Part shown: in pieces, positions 8,245-32,387 of the stretch
How positions within the stretch are numbered: position 1 is the first letter of the stretch
Layout: each line of letters starts with the position of its first letter
IMG/VR virus record: IMGVR_UViG_3300030116_008084
Location: 1 to 35,203 of that record
DNA length: 35,203 nt
Strand: one strand, 5' to 3'
Source: a virus
Translations under genes and position numbers: made by a program
The notes under the pieces: model-generated
Told to the model about the DNA's origin: nothing
Databases searched by the model: none
Seen by the model: only the letters and a program-made list of their open reading frames with translations

Positions 8245-9282
8245 ATGGCAAATATAAGTGATCCATTAGATATTAATATGTTGCAGGGTGGTGCTTCTGC
8301 TGCTGCAGCTAATTCTGTAGGTCAAGAGTTTGTACCTGAGGTTTGGGGACAAGCAATTCTTGATAAATTCAGAACAAACACAGTAATGTTACCTTTAGCA
8401 AATGATTTATCATCTGAAGCAAATGGTACTGATAAAATACATCTACCACATATTGGTGTTACACCACTTGGAGATGTTTCTCAAGGTACTCCAATAGCAT
8501 CTGATATTGATTCAGGTGGTTCTATGGTAGCAACTGAAACTGCATTAAACATTGACCAGCATAAAGTAACATCTTTATGGATACCTGATGCTTTAAAAGC
8601 TCAATCATCATACAATTTATTCAATATGTATTCTGATCAATTAGCTTATGCAATAGGTAGAGGTGTGGATAATTACTTAATGTATAAAATTGCAGATAAC
8701 TTAAGTACTGCTCATGGTTCAGCAAGTGGTGCTACTCAAGATACTGTTGATATGATTGAAGTTGGAGATGCTTTAGCATCATCTAATATTGATGATATAT
8801 TCAAAGCAGTAATACTTGAAACAGGAAGCACAGAGGGATGGACAATGGTTTTAAGTCCTACTTTATATGCTTCTTTAGCAGCTTTAGATTCAGGTGCAGG
8901 ATTTGTTAGAGGTACAGCTTCTCCATTAGGTTCAGGTTTTGCTTCAACAGGTGTTGCAGGAAACATTTTAGGTATGAATGTTGTGGTTTCACAATCTCCA
9001 TACTTAGATGTTGGTTCTGTATCTGCCGATGCTGACAAAGGTGTTACAGCTTGGGGTGGTTTTGATACTGATGGCAGTACAAATGATGACATATTAAGAG
9101 GTTTCTGTATGCATAGCTCAGCTCTTTATTATGCAGCAGCTCAATCTCCAAGAGTTCAACAGTCATATCAGCACACAGAATTATCTGACTTAATAACTGT
9201 AGATGCAATCTATGGTTGTGCAGTTAGAAATTCTAGTACTGCAGGTGATCGTAGAATTATTGGTTTAACTAAGAATGTCTAA
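8245..9282 (+). CDS. Major capsid protein
   Basis: A 345-residue protein following scaffold and followed by a strong terminator, the classic capsid position. The N-terminal GQEFVPEVWGQAILDKF segment and the alternating beta-rich stretches (DKIHLPHIGVTPLGDV, then DQHKVTSLWIPDALKAQ) resemble the HK97-fold coats of the P22/T7-type groups. It has no prohead protease next to it, and no long N-terminal delta domain, in keeping with a separate scaffold. The SD is weak (GCGAGAAA). High-level expression is expected from the promoter at 7655. Confidence 0.88.
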   Translation: MANISDPLDINMLQGGASAAAANSVGQEFVPEVWGQAILDKFRTNTVMLPLANDLSSEANGTDKIHLPHIGVTPLGDVSQGTPIASDIDSGGSMVATETALNIDQHKVTSLWIPDALKAQSSYNLFNMYSDQLAYAIGRGVDNYLMYKIADNLSTAHGSASGATQDTVDMIEVGDALASSNIDDIFKAVILETGSTEGWTMVLSPTLYASLAALDSGAGFVRGTASPLGSGFASTGVAGNILGMNVVVSQSPYLDVGSVSADADKGVTAWGGFDTDGSTNDDILRGFCMHSSALYYAAAQSPRVQQSYQHTELSDLITVDAIYGCAVRNSSTAGDRRIIGLTKNV

Positions 9283-9349: not shown

Positions 9350-9760
9350 ATGGACATACTCAAAGAAATTAAAAAACATGAAGGTTTTAAATCTAAAGTT
9401 TATAAGTGTACAGAAGGATATGATACTATAGGTTATGGTTTTGCTATTAAAGATTTAGAAATGGATGAAGATGTAGCAGAACTTATATTGATGAAAAAAA
9501 TTAAGAAATTATTAGAAAGAATTATTAAAACCTTTTCCTGGTTTAAAGATAGTCCAAAAGAAATACAATATGTTGTTACCAATATGTGTTATCAACTAGG
9601 TCTTAAAGGTTTTTCAAAATTTAAAAAAACAATATATTTACTTGAAACAGAACAATATGATGAGGCATCAGTAGAGATGCTAGATTCTTTATGGGCAAAG
9701 CAAACACCTAACAGAGCTAAAGAGTTAAGTGAGGTTGTTGCTTCTGTATCCTCAAATTAG
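9350..9760 (+). CDS. Endolysin, T4-type lysozyme (GH24)
   Basis: A 136-residue muramidase aligned along its length with T4 lysozyme: HEGF with catalytic E11, TEGYDTIGYGF with T26, and a C-terminal WAKQTPNRAKEL segment matching the family's QTPNRA motif. The residue at the T4 Asp20 position is Cys20, giving an E-C-T triad, a variant seen in many GH24 endolysins and compatible with activity. There is no signal peptide, so a holin is needed to reach peptidoglycan. The SD is AAGGAA. It is shorter than T4 lysozyme (164 aa), mainly in the middle lobe. Confidence 0.92.
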   Translation: MDILKEIKKHEGFKSKVYKCTEGYDTIGYGFAIKDLEMDEDVAELILMKKIKKLLERIIKTFSWFKDSPKEIQYVVTNMCYQLGLKGFSKFKKTIYLLETEQYDEASVEMLDSLWAKQTPNRAKELSEVVASVSSN

Positions 9761-9811: not shown

Positions 9812-10591
9812 ATGGCTTTGAAAGATAGGGGTGTAATCAAACGAGCAATAGTAACTCCTGATAAGCATTTTCCTCTACACGACTCCAAAGCAATTAATGT
9901 ATTATGTAAAACTATCGAGATAGTTAAGCCTGATATATATGTTGATTTAGGGGATGTTGGAGAGTGGAGTGCTTTTTCAGCTTGGAAGTATAAAAGAAAG
10001 AAAGCTCCACCATTAGAATTTTTAATAGAAGATTTTGATAAAGATGTTAGAGATGTAAATGCAGGTATGGATATTATTGATGAATCTCTAGATAAAGTCA
10101 ATTGTGAAGAAAGACATATAACTGAGGGAAATCACGATAATTGGTTAAATATGTCTGTAGAAAAATACCCTTATGTTCCCCAATACAAATTTAAAAATGC
10201 AGTAAAATTAAAGGAAAGAGGTTATAAATATCATCAGTTTGGAAAACATCTTAAAATTGGTAAATTATTTATGTATCATGGTCATCAATATGGTGGTCAA
10301 TATCATACCTCTAACCATTTGAGGAAGTTGGGTTGCAATGTTATGTATGGTCATTGGCACGATTTACAGCAAATGTCTGCAACTCATATGGATGGTGCTA
10401 AATCAGCTTGGTCAATTGGATGTCTTAAAGATATGTCAGCAGAGGCAAATGATTGGTTGGATCATAGGAGAATTAACTGGGCACATGCATTTGCTATAGT
10501 AGATTTCTATGAAAAAGGATTATTTACAGTACATATTATACAAATTATAAATGGTAAAACTTCTTTATGGGGTGAGCTCATAAAGGGATAG
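9812..10591 (+). CDS. Calcineurin-like metallophosphoesterase (259 aa)
   Basis: All metal-binding motifs of the family are present in order: D17-x-H19 (TPDKHFPLHD), GD48 (DLGDVGE), GNHD (106-109), HGH (156-158) and GHWH (180-183). These bind two metal ions to hydrolyse phosphoesters in nucleotides, nucleic acid or protein. The protein is cytoplasmic, with no signal or membrane span. An AGGGAA SD precedes the ATG. It lies between lysozyme and the small membrane genes, a position that gives no clear hint of the substrate. Confidence 0.9.
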   Translation: MALKDRGVIKRAIVTPDKHFPLHDSKAINVLCKTIEIVKPDIYVDLGDVGEWSAFSAWKYKRKKAPPLEFLIEDFDKDVRDVNAGMDIIDESLDKVNCEERHITEGNHDNWLNMSVEKYPYVPQYKFKNAVKLKERGYKYHQFGKHLKIGKLFMYHGHQYGGQYHTSNHLRKLGCNVMYGHWHDLQQMSATHMDGAKSAWSIGCLKDMSAEANDWLDHRRINWAHAFAIVDFYEKGLFTVHIIQIINGKTSLWGELIKG

Positions 10592-10604
10592 TGTATGGAG
10601 ATAA

Positions 10605-10967
10605 ATGGAACAAAGTGTAATAGAGGGTTTGATTGGCGAATATGGCTGGATGGCTGCTGTTGCCTTTGTTTTTATACTTGGTAGAAATACCATTGAAACT
10701 GCAATTGAAGCACTTAAAGTTTTTGCAGGTGATGATTTAAATACAGATGATGTAATAATATTTGATGGTAGACCAGCAAGAGTAGTTAGGGTTGGTTTAT
10801 GGAAAACAATATTATTTGTTTATGAAGTAGGTTGTGTTAATGGTAAACCTTTTGTCAAGGGTGGTAATAAGGTTGCTATTCAAAATGATAAGTTAAAAGA
10901 TCATTTAATTGAAAAACCTTTGCCTATGCTTGATCTTAAAAAATGGGAAGAATGCGACAAGGAATGA
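10605..10967 (+). CDS. Minimal MscS-like membrane protein (120 aa)
   Basis: Residues 13-25 form one membrane span, and 26-42 an amphipathic helix. They are followed by a stretch that fits the MscS beta domain: DDVIIFDGRPARVVRVGLWK (48-67) matches the G-D-x-V-x-x-G-x-x-G-x-V-x-x-I-G-x-x-T pattern, and NKVAIQNDKLKDHLI (88-102) matches MscS 'vxIPNxkLxxxxI'. Only the equivalent of the pore-lining helix and beta domain is kept; the first two MscS spans and the C-terminal cage are absent. It is next to the holin candidate, so a role in membrane permeability at lysis is possible (inference). Confidence 0.55.
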   Translation: MEQSVIEGLIGEYGWMAAVAFVFILGRNTIETAIEALKVFAGDDLNTDDVIIFDGRPARVVRVGLWKTILFVYEVGCVNGKPFVKGGNKVAIQNDKLKDHLIEKPLPMLDLKKWEECDKE

Positions 10968-11173
10968 AAAAGAATTTAAATGAATATAGAGGTGAGGTAA
11001 TGACTCATCTTGAATATATAAAAGAAAAAGTAGATGCTAATTATAAACATTTAGAAAGAGTAAATGGTCGTCTTAATAAAGCAGAAAAAGATATAACATC
11101 TATGAAAACAGCAGGAATTACAATATATACTATAATTGGTATTATATTAACTTGGTTAGGAGTAAGTAAATGA
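10964..11173 (+). CDS. XhlA-like holin-type protein (69 aa)
   Basis: The layout is that of the haemolysin XhlA family: an amphipathic coiled-coil N-terminal part (EYIKEKVDANYKHLERVNG, NKAEKDITSMK) and a single C-terminal membrane span (ITIYTIIGIILTWLGV) ending in a short tail. The start at 10964 overlaps the previous stop (ATGA). A start at 11000 has a better SD (GAGG seven bases upstream) and would give 57 residues. With the leaderless lysozyme nearby it is the best holin candidate. XhlA proteins normally act with a second small holin. Confidence 0.65.
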   Translation: MKKNLNEYRGEVMTHLEYIKEKVDANYKHLERVNGRLNKAEKDITSMKTAGITIYTIIGIILTWLGVSK

Positions 11174-11463
11174 TACAAGGTTTAATAGCAAAGAAAGCAA
11201 TAGACATAATTTTAAAAAAAATTATGGAAAAAAGAGAAGTAAAGAAACTTCGAAAGTATGTCGAAGAAGATAATGAACTAGATATACAAGTAAAACAAAT
11301 GCAAAAAACAATTAACAAACAAGGTAAATATATTGAGGAGCTTGAAAAAAATGTTGCTATCTTAAAATCTGATAGTCATCCTCCTGCTTTTAGTAAAAAG
11401 AGTTACAATAAAATACTTAAAAGATTAAATAAAATAGAAAAGGAGTGTTCATGTTTGAAATAA
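11170..11463 (+). CDS. Coiled-coil protein of the lysis region (97 aa)
   Basis: A very charged, almost entirely helical 97-residue protein with an amphipathic N-terminus (MIQGLIAKKAIDIILKKIM) and heptad-like repeats (VKQMQKTINKQGKYIEELEK). It overlaps the XhlA-like gene by ATGA and the next gene by 13 bases. There is no true membrane span or lipobox, so it is not a recognisable spanin. A regulatory or membrane-surface partner of the neighbouring holin candidate is one option; the function is unproven. Confidence 0.65.
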   Translation: MIQGLIAKKAIDIILKKIMEKREVKKLRKYVEEDNELDIQVKQMQKTINKQGKYIEELEKNVAILKSDSHPPAFSKKSYNKILKRLNKIEKECSCLK

Positions 11464-11597
11464 TAACTAGTAACTGGGAATGGTTTTTATTAGCCTTATA
11501 TGTTTTAGAAAAAGGTATCAAGCTAAGTCCATCTAAAAAAGATGATTTAGTTTGGGATATGGTTTTAAAACCTATCGTAGATAAAATCAAAAAGTAA
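11451..11597 (+). CDS. Small holin-like protein (48 aa)
   Basis: A 48-residue ORF (MFEIITSNWEWFLLALYVLE..., then LSPSKKDDLVWDMVLKPI) with one weak hydrophobic span at about residues 9-20 and a basic end. AAGGAG sits six bases before the ATG, and its stop overlaps the next ATG (TAATG). The pattern 'short span plus (L)(T/S)P(S/T)KKDD' recalls, from memory, small membrane proteins of other phages' lysis regions. A pinholin or holin-partner role is plausible but untested. Confidence 0.6.
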   Translation: MFEIITSNWEWFLLALYVLEKGIKLSPSKKDDLVWDMVLKPIVDKIKK

Positions 11598-31220: not shown

Positions 31221-31273
31221 CTTTCATTATTCCATTTTTTTATTTTTCTTTTTTTACATTCTTCACAAATCAT
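31217..31273 (-). CDS. Truncated CxxC micro-ORF (18 aa)
   Basis: An 18-codon ORF beginning MICEECKKRKIKK, starting inside the end of the C5 methyltransferase gene and ending by ATGA overlap on the MT-A70 start. It duplicates the first 13 codons of the microgene at 30498-30647. It may be the remnant left when the MT-A70 gene was inserted, now serving as a coupling leader. Protein-level function is doubtful. Confidence 0.35.
   Translation of the reverse strand: MICEECKKRKIKKWNNER
31235..31269. repeat. 35-bp direct repeat, copy B
   Basis: The partner of 30609-30643, placed just upstream of the MT-A70 start in gene direction and overlapping the last codons of the C5 methyltransferase. The copies differ only outside the 35 bases (CCAT or TCAT next to the end). 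This supports gain of MT-A70 by recombination between or at these sequences. Confidence 0.85.
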
Positions 31274-32387
31274 ATATTTTCCTAACTATAGCTTCTATTA
31301 CTGGCACACTAACTGCATTGCCTAATTGTTTGTATCTTTGGGTATCTGATTGTTCATCTGTCCAACCATCAGGAAATCCTTGCAGCCTTTCACATTCAAT
31401 AGGTGTTAATCTTCTAATTTTAGTATTATCTGTATAATAAGGCTGCTGAGATTGACTAGTAGATATAGCACGAGATAATCCATTATTGCTTTCTAGAACC
31501 CTTTCTCTTGGCAACCAATTACCTTTTGGTTTATCAGATTCAGGTAAAATGCCATAAGTTTTAAAAGTAACATCATATAACCCTGTCTTAGCACCTCCTC
31601 CACCACCATCAGTTATAGTTTTAGACACTCCATTTGTATTATAAACTCTGTTTGCTTGATTATCTTTTCCAAGGTTTCCAATCTGCTTTAATACTTGTTT
31701 TGGCTGTTTATAATCAGTTGCACTTAAACAAAACATTATTCCATCTATAGAATGTATATCTCCTCTCTGACCACCTGTTCCAGAATGTCCAACAATATTT
31801 ATTTCTTTAGAACCAGCTTTGATGTCATTTTTTCCGATAGGAAATACTTTTCTTCCACTTCTTCTTCCATTATATCTACCAAAGATAAAGATTCTTTCTC
31901 TATTTTGGGGGAGAAACCAGCGAGTATTAACCACTTGGCATTCAAGGGTATAATTAAGGTCGGCAAGAATTTTGTATATTGTAATAAATGTTCGCTTATT
32001 GTCATGGCTAAGTAAACCTTTAACATTTTCGAGTAATATACAGGGTATGGGTTTTCCATTTTTAATGTAATCTTCGAGAATCCTTGCGATTTCAAAAAAG
32101 AGAGTACCTCTGGTGTCTTCAAATCCTCGTCTTTTTCCTGCAATACTGAAAGCCTGACAAGGAAATCCTCCTGTGAGTAAATCGATTTTTTCTCCTTTAA
32201 GTTTTTTGTATGAAACACTTTCAATTGATCCAAGTTCTGTTGCATTTGGAAATCTCCTTTTATAAGTTTTGTTTGCATATTTATCTATATCAGAAAAATA
32301 ATGTTTATTAATTTCAATACCTGTTTTTTCTACACCTAAACTAAAACCACCTATACCACTAAATAAATCTAAAATATTAATCTTCAT
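31263..32387 (-). CDS. DNA cytosine-C5 methyltransferase
   Basis: A 374-residue enzyme with all main motifs in order: DLFSGIGGF (I, 7-15), GGFPCQAFSIAG (IV, catalytic C77), LLENVKG (VI, 118-124), QNRERIFI (VIII, 161-168) and, near the end, RRLTPIECERLQGFPDGW (IX) and QLGNAVSVPV (X). The variable target-recognition region lies at about 175-300. It transfers a methyl group from SAM to cytosine in a specific site, probably protecting phage DNA. It is complete in length. No partner endonuclease of a restriction system is adjacent. Confidence 0.96.
   Translation of the reverse strand: MKINILDLFSGIGGFSLGVEKTGIEINKHYFSDIDKYANKTYKRRFPNATELGSIESVSYKKLKGEKIDLLTGGFPCQAFSIAGKRRGFEDTRGTLFFEIARILEDYIKNGKPIPCILLENVKGLLSHDNKRTFITIYKILADLNYTLECQVVNTRWFLPQNRERIFIFGRYNGRRSGRKVFPIGKNDIKAGSKEINIVGHSGTGGQRGDIHSIDGIMFCLSATDYKQPKQVLKQIGNLGKDNQANRVYNTNGVSKTITDGGGGGAKTGLYDVTFKTYGILPESDKPKGNWLPRERVLESNNGLSRAISTSQSQQPYYTDNTKIRRLTPIECERLQGFPDGWTDEQSDTQRYKQLGNAVSVPVIEAIVRKIYDL

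Follow-up and report, generated by a model that had tools for sequence, protein, structure and literature searches.

The mechanosensitive channel MscS is the standard model of membrane-tension sensing by proteins. Much smaller proteins of related design have been described. The microsporidian MscS2 proteins consist of TM3 and the beta domain, some of them comprising only 73-95 residues with ambiguous transmembrane (TM) prediction, and MscS2 is a heptamer in vitro, as seen by cryo-EM (PMC11262690). TcMscS of Trypanosoma cruzi, a heptamer gated by tension, has neither TM1 nor the alpha/beta cage (PMC12334622), and it serves osmoregulation (PMC12334622, PMC8282336). On the viral side, gp51 of Paraglaciecola phage PANV1 (MW805361) combines an HHpred match to MscS (6RLD) with an uncertain TM helix (PMC9239159), and eukaryotic large DNA viruses encode putative channels, either MscS-like with 261 residues and three TM helices or MscL-like with 101 residues (PMC6163359). 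A full-text search of open-licence papers returned nothing on phage-encoded MscS with holins.

Here we analyze a 120-residue protein, mini-MscS, encoded in a viral window of 35,203 nucleotides (the whole stretch of DNA under analysis). By prediction, a TM3-type pore helix is followed by an Sm-like beta domain, a plan previously described for microsporidian MscS2, and we judge the protein to be a minimal and divergent version of the MscS fold. MscS2 is likewise reduced to TM3 and the beta domain, with the alpha/beta cage absent in part, but it comes from eukaryotic intracellular parasites, its sequence is recognizable as MscS and it has no phage or lysis-gene link. TcMscS shares the missing TM1 and alpha/beta cage as well as short membrane helices; in contrast to mini-MscS, it is a protozoan protein that retains TM2 and for which tension gating has been shown. 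These two precedents indicate that a protein built on the mini-MscS plan can assemble and that a slightly larger one conducts. PANV1 gp51 is also a phage protein with MscS resemblance and an uncertain TM helix, but it belongs to a myovirus of a cultured host and HHpred detects it directly. The channels of the large DNA viruses are similarly virus-borne and putatively mechanosensitive, whereas their carriers infect algae and protists.

A conserved gene of uncultured phages

The first-pass annotation of the window had proposed this open reading frame on the + strand, and it is present as described, with an ATG start and a GGAG ribosome-binding sequence at positions 10597-10600 (Table 1). IMG/VR was scanned three times, the queries being the window protein, one of its distant relatives and an alignment of both, and the family was extended by a pattern scan and by a walk from a divergent member (L263). 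Relatives occur on ~150 stretches in IMG/VR and, once duplicates were removed, comprise ~100 distinct homologs with identity to the window protein down to 59%. The homologs are conserved along their full length, and the median dN/dS is ~0.29 (149 pairs with unsaturated dS). Positions 10605-10967 constitute a real, conserved gene, which is carried by a family of phages that are uncultured and mostly marine.

No relative was found by tblastn in 50,697 named phage records. Foldseek comparison with the viral structure library BFVD gave matches at E <1e-3 to three unnamed proteins of 104-138 residues (A0A1B1IQW5, A0A516MLU7 and A0A516LVN0), so that further viral relatives probably exist. One relative resides on QCPL01000010.1 (46,061 bases), a contig of the single-cell genome Prochlorococcus sp. 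AG-436-M02, and this contig was the sole match when 194 cyanobacterial genomes were searched with the mini-MscS family HMM. Because phage DNA from elsewhere can accompany a sorted cell, Prochlorococcus is a host lead rather than a proven host. The same contig is also listed in IMG/VR and belongs to a phage group without cultured members. Elsewhere in the window, the major capsid protein (8245-9282) has as its sole named-phage relatives the podoviruses of filamentous cyanobacteria Pf-WMP3, A-4L and LPP-2, at 22-28% identity, and a DNA methyltransferase gene lies on the - strand (31263-32387; phrog_116, E 1e-92).

Table 1. Features of the mini-MscS region of the window
Feature	Position	Strand	Basis or description
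Endolysin (Phage_lysozyme)	9350..9760	+	Pfam PF00959, E 2.5e-8; phrog_7 endolysin, E 8e-14
Metallophosphoesterase	9812..10591	+	phrog_221, E 3.8e-20
Mini-MscS protein, 120 aa	10605..10967	+	N-terminal pore-helix-like segment (TM3a/TM3b-like) and Sm-like beta domain
Mini-MscS residues 3-40, predicted long helix	10611..10724	+	AF2, hhalign, hydropathy
Mini-MscS residues 49-94, predicted beta domain	10749..10886	+	AF2, Foldseek, hhalign, family alignment
Small coiled-coil protein with one C-terminal TM, holin candidate	10964..11173	+	Sequence; homologs form cluster 18
97-aa protein, N-terminal amphipathic segment and coiled coil (cluster 2)	11170..11463	+	
48-aa single-TM protein (cluster 6)	11451..11597	+	Sequence, synteny

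Resemblance to the MscS pore helix and beta domain

Mini-MscS has no match in Pfam, PHROGs, NCBIfam or PADLOC, and none among PDB sequences (phmmer/hmmsearch); in Pfam, PHROGs and NCBIfam there was likewise no match to a holin profile. The first-pass annotation had proposed a profile search against MscS families as a check; the curated profile PF00924 matched neither the window protein nor 27 homologs nor 11 records at E up to 10, while the same profile gave matches in 14 of 14 control genomes. A search of PHROGs with E. coli MscS and YnaI found no MscS-type family. Three leads were dropped along the way: a weak match to phrog_21414, which matches just one control genome, as evidence for MscS; an origin in anti-phage defense, PADLOC being without a match; and the matches of E. 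coli MscS in the phage collection as true phage channels, since these are mostly unannotated fragments or host-like contigs.

To compare families rather than single sequences, the mini-MscS alignment was set against a cellular MscS profile of 32 proteins from E. coli and cyanobacteria using hhalign. The resulting alignment is gapless, starting in the pore helix TM3 and continuing into the beta domain, and places residues 14-68 of the window protein on residues 99-153 of E. coli MscS (EcMscS). The P-value improves as divergent members are added, from 9.9e-4 with 27 members to 7.4e-4 with 97 and, with 99, to 5.7e-4 for the full length and 3.8e-4 for the core. A reversed MscS control gave P ~0.1, and the best P between mini-MscS as query and 37 other families of the same phages was 0.039. 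However, the best of these 37 decoy families reached P 1.5e-3 against MscS, and thus the sequence evidence alone is moderate. Scoring with the family HMM points in the same direction. The 33 cellular MscS ORFs outscore 454 long non-MscS ORFs (Mann-Whitney p 2e-14, a value that is too small given the relatedness among the MscS sequences), and 17 of the 33 align in one register, which is the hhalign register. Against 120 shuffled profiles, in which columns were permuted inside blocks of ten, the real profile has a mean score on MscS of 0.49, above all of them (-2.16, sd 0.54), and its register count was attained by one of the 120.

The AlphaFold (AF2) model of the window protein, built from 27 sequences (pLDDT 69), contains a long helix (residues 3-40) and a beta domain, and its Foldseek matches in the PDB are weak, with MscS channels mixed among SH3-like ribosomal proteins. 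The model of a relative that is 61% identical to the window protein (L215; 54 sequences, pLDDT 79.6) gave a more uniform result. Each of its top 36 PDB matches is a bacterial or plant MscS-family channel; among them are EcMscS, TtMscS, HpMscS, MscK, a YnaI chimera, MSL1, MSL10 and Flycatcher1, and they have a Foldseek probability of 1.00, TM-scores up to 0.53 on the query and E-values of 0.007 to 0.06. No individual E-value in the PDB comparison falls below 1e-3, and these values are insufficient alone; it is the uniform match list together with its agreement with the sequence register that sustains the MscS-fold resemblance. The first-pass annotation had made its reading depend on a predicted MscS-type barrel, and MscS-family structures occupy all 36 top places for the L215 model. 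Its proposal that the protein corresponds to the MscS pore helix and beta domain and nothing else is likewise supported, as a prediction, by hhalign, the family HMM, the shuffled profiles, AF2 and Foldseek.

Within the helix, residues ~14-26 are hydrophobic and residues 27-40 are amphipathic and charged; hhalign pairs this helix with TM3a/TM3b of EcMscS, residue 14 falling on 99. The open reading frame begins 13 residues ahead of the hydrophobic part, so a single helix precedes the beta domain, after which only ~25 residues follow. The beta domain ends in V-A-I-Q-N, at the place of the MscS I-V-I-P-N, and the D-V-I, V-x-x-G-x-x-x-T and I-x-N positions are common to both proteins. The patterns V61-x-x-G64-x-x-x-T68 and V90-x-I92-x-N94-x-x-L97 agree exactly with those first proposed for the gene, and the leading D48-x-V50 is there too, but the spacing to G55 is four residues rather than three. 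In contrast to MscS, mini-MscS is without TM1 and TM2, the alpha/beta cage with its side portals and the C-terminal barrel, and its beta domain is one hairpin longer. Two features count against the MscS reading. The kink proline P129 and the glycine G113 of MscS are replaced by D44 and N28, and the hydrophobicity of the helix is borderline (mean best 19-residue Kyte-Doolittle ~1.5). Since PF00924 does not recognize the protein and the canonical extra domains are absent, we refer to it as MscS-like, a divergent minimal variant. The C-terminal tail is polar and strongly conserved (IEKPLPMLDLxxW), which suggests a partner beyond a simple pore.

Gene neighborhood

Mini-MscS lies two genes after the lysozyme, as the first-pass annotation had it, the upstream gene being a Phage_lysozyme match, and its overlap with the next gene consists of an ATGA at 10964-10967. 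Another ATGA overlap marks the start of the gene at 11170, and the small gene from 11451 precedes a long gene at 11597; these successive overlaps and the small gene indicate that mini-MscS opens a tight run of coupled genes. The XhlA-like holin candidate suggested for the overlapping gene has the coiled coil and C-terminal TM of that layout but no XhlA match in Pfam. The cluster 2 gene is found downstream of mini-MscS in 47 of 66 loci, and in other lineages cluster 19 takes the position of cluster 6. More generally, a small TM ORF lies within 600 nt downstream at 71 of 87 mini-MscS loci, often with an ATGA overlap, compared with 153 of 551 other genes on the same contigs (28%). One such group, cluster 4 (L002:3690-3884 and similar), comprises proteins of 57-64 residues (MKDTLRVLxxxPEIG...NPILTFISLSIGI...) with two hydrophobic stretches and no family in Pfam or PHROGs. 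The cluster 4 gene usually follows with an ATGA overlap, and the group is possibly an undescribed holin family.

Upstream, the most constant neighbor is the metallophosphoesterase, which 46 of 78 loci have directly adjacent; 5 more have another metallophosphoesterase (cluster 33) at this place. The presence of two different enzymes of this kind in one place hints at a functional link with mini-MscS. In the L060 clade, a 398-aa exonuclease-type metallophosphoesterase (L060:4795-5991) replaces the type seen in the window.

An endolysin-type gene occurs within five genes upstream of mini-MscS in 34 of 70 loci. Phage_lysozyme itself is present in just two of 26 related records. A second type is an M15 L-Ala-D-Glu peptidase related to the T5 endolysin (phrog_465, E 6e-38; PDB 2mxz, E 1e-9), and a third corresponds to phrog_3108, which its E-T-G and G-F-x-Q motifs, rather than a profile match, suggest to be a transglycosylase-like endolysin. 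Three unrelated endolysin-type genes occupy the same position in different lineages (L097:4648-5043, L010:3444-3890 and the lysozyme gene of the window). That mini-MscS stays constant while the type of endolysin nearby changes speaks in favor of a lysis setting. The lysis region that was first proposed holds for about half of the lineages, which have a lysis-type neighborhood; the other half have no recognizable adjoining endolysin, which counts against a lysis role. In these remaining lineages, mini-MscS sits between adaptor- or decoration-looking genes and a long tail-type gene, roles that were read from the size and order of the neighbors and not from profile matches. Of the features of a holin, position is the only one that mini-MscS may share, and then in part.

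Proposed role and alternatives

We give an even chance to the reading that mini-MscS is a divergent MscS-fold pore acting in lysis or late turgor control. Its gene belongs to the late operon, where genes for tiny membrane proteins accompany it and, in roughly half of the lineages, an endolysin gene closely precedes it. In the proposed mechanism, one short pore-lining helix would cross the membrane with its N terminus out and its C terminus in, followed by a cytoplasmic beta domain; the negative N terminus and the presence of R27 and K38 after the hydrophobic part would place the C terminus in the cytoplasm. Mini-MscS would insert into the inner membrane of the host and, by analogy with MscS, MscS2 and TcMscS, would oligomerize there, probably with seven subunits, into a ring that makes a conducting pore. 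A late membrane leak or tension-relief pore of this kind, the most likely role, would help to time lysis or to carry it out, and it could collapse ion gradients, release osmolytes or limit turgor until holin and endolysin act. A function of the pore in lysis, through leak or tension relief, as opposed to osmotic protection, DNA entry or scaffolding, is speculative, and the least certain element is the preference for lysis over osmotic control of infected cells. A lysis pore may be redundant, given that separate holin candidates are encoded directly downstream. Tension sensing and superinfection exclusion by mini-MscS are speculation. The more specific proposal of an MscS cut to its smallest conducting core and used as a tension-reading lysis pore or timer, a holin mode not described before, we consider doubtful.

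Several alternatives bear on the same data. The hhalign and Foldseek evidence for the fold would equally fit an osmotic valve or host-takeover channel, a pore that counters hypo-osmotic or metabolite-driven turgor and is not a lysis protein. Many lineages have no adjoining endolysin, the similarly reduced TcMscS serves osmoregulation (PMC12334622, PMC8282336), and the Prochlorococcus single-cell genome in which a relative occurs encodes a single native MscS, to which phages could add another. However, that host gene also means that an MscS is already available, and the late structural operon, small holin-like genes and frequent translational coupling are a better fit to late action; we regard this valve as unlikely. 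A non-conducting, MscS-derived scaffold ring that regulates a holin in an antiholin-like manner, recruits the metallophosphoesterase or excludes superinfection is unlikely as well. It would account for the strictly conserved polar residues and C-terminal tail and for the metallophosphoesterases upstream, but the latter argument is one of gene adjacency, which is weak by itself.

A virion component, namely a membrane-inserting protein that is delivered with the DNA and makes an inner-membrane ring or channel as the genome enters, would suit the position of the gene: in many lineages it is flanked by genes of head-tail adaptor or decoration type on one side and by very long genes of tail- or fiber-like character on the other, and elsewhere it follows the gene for a 1500-1800-aa protein (cluster 43). 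Lysis genes occupy that place too in these phages, and the coupling is with small membrane proteins and not with virion genes, which makes a virion role improbable. Finally, any helix joined to a small SH3/Sm-like barrel might yield such matches by convergence, with no relation to MscS. Indeed, ribosomal L6e and eIF5A barrels are among the matches of the window model, and the sequence-only P-values are modest beside the best decoy. Nevertheless, sequence register and structure agree independently on the same gapless alignment, the block-shuffled profiles fall short of the real mean score, and with the better L215 model barrel-only matches rank below the 36 best MscS matches. Convergence is thus very improbable.

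Collectively, the findings suggest that a reduced channel is put to use by phages in late infection. As a pore acting in lysis or late turgor control, mini-MscS would add a channel fold to this stage of phage biology, and a possible tie between lysis timing and turgor becomes directly testable in laboratory E. coli without channels of its own. A natural one-helix MscS represented by ~100 sequences would also show which parts the pore needs, complementing MscS2 and TcMscS.
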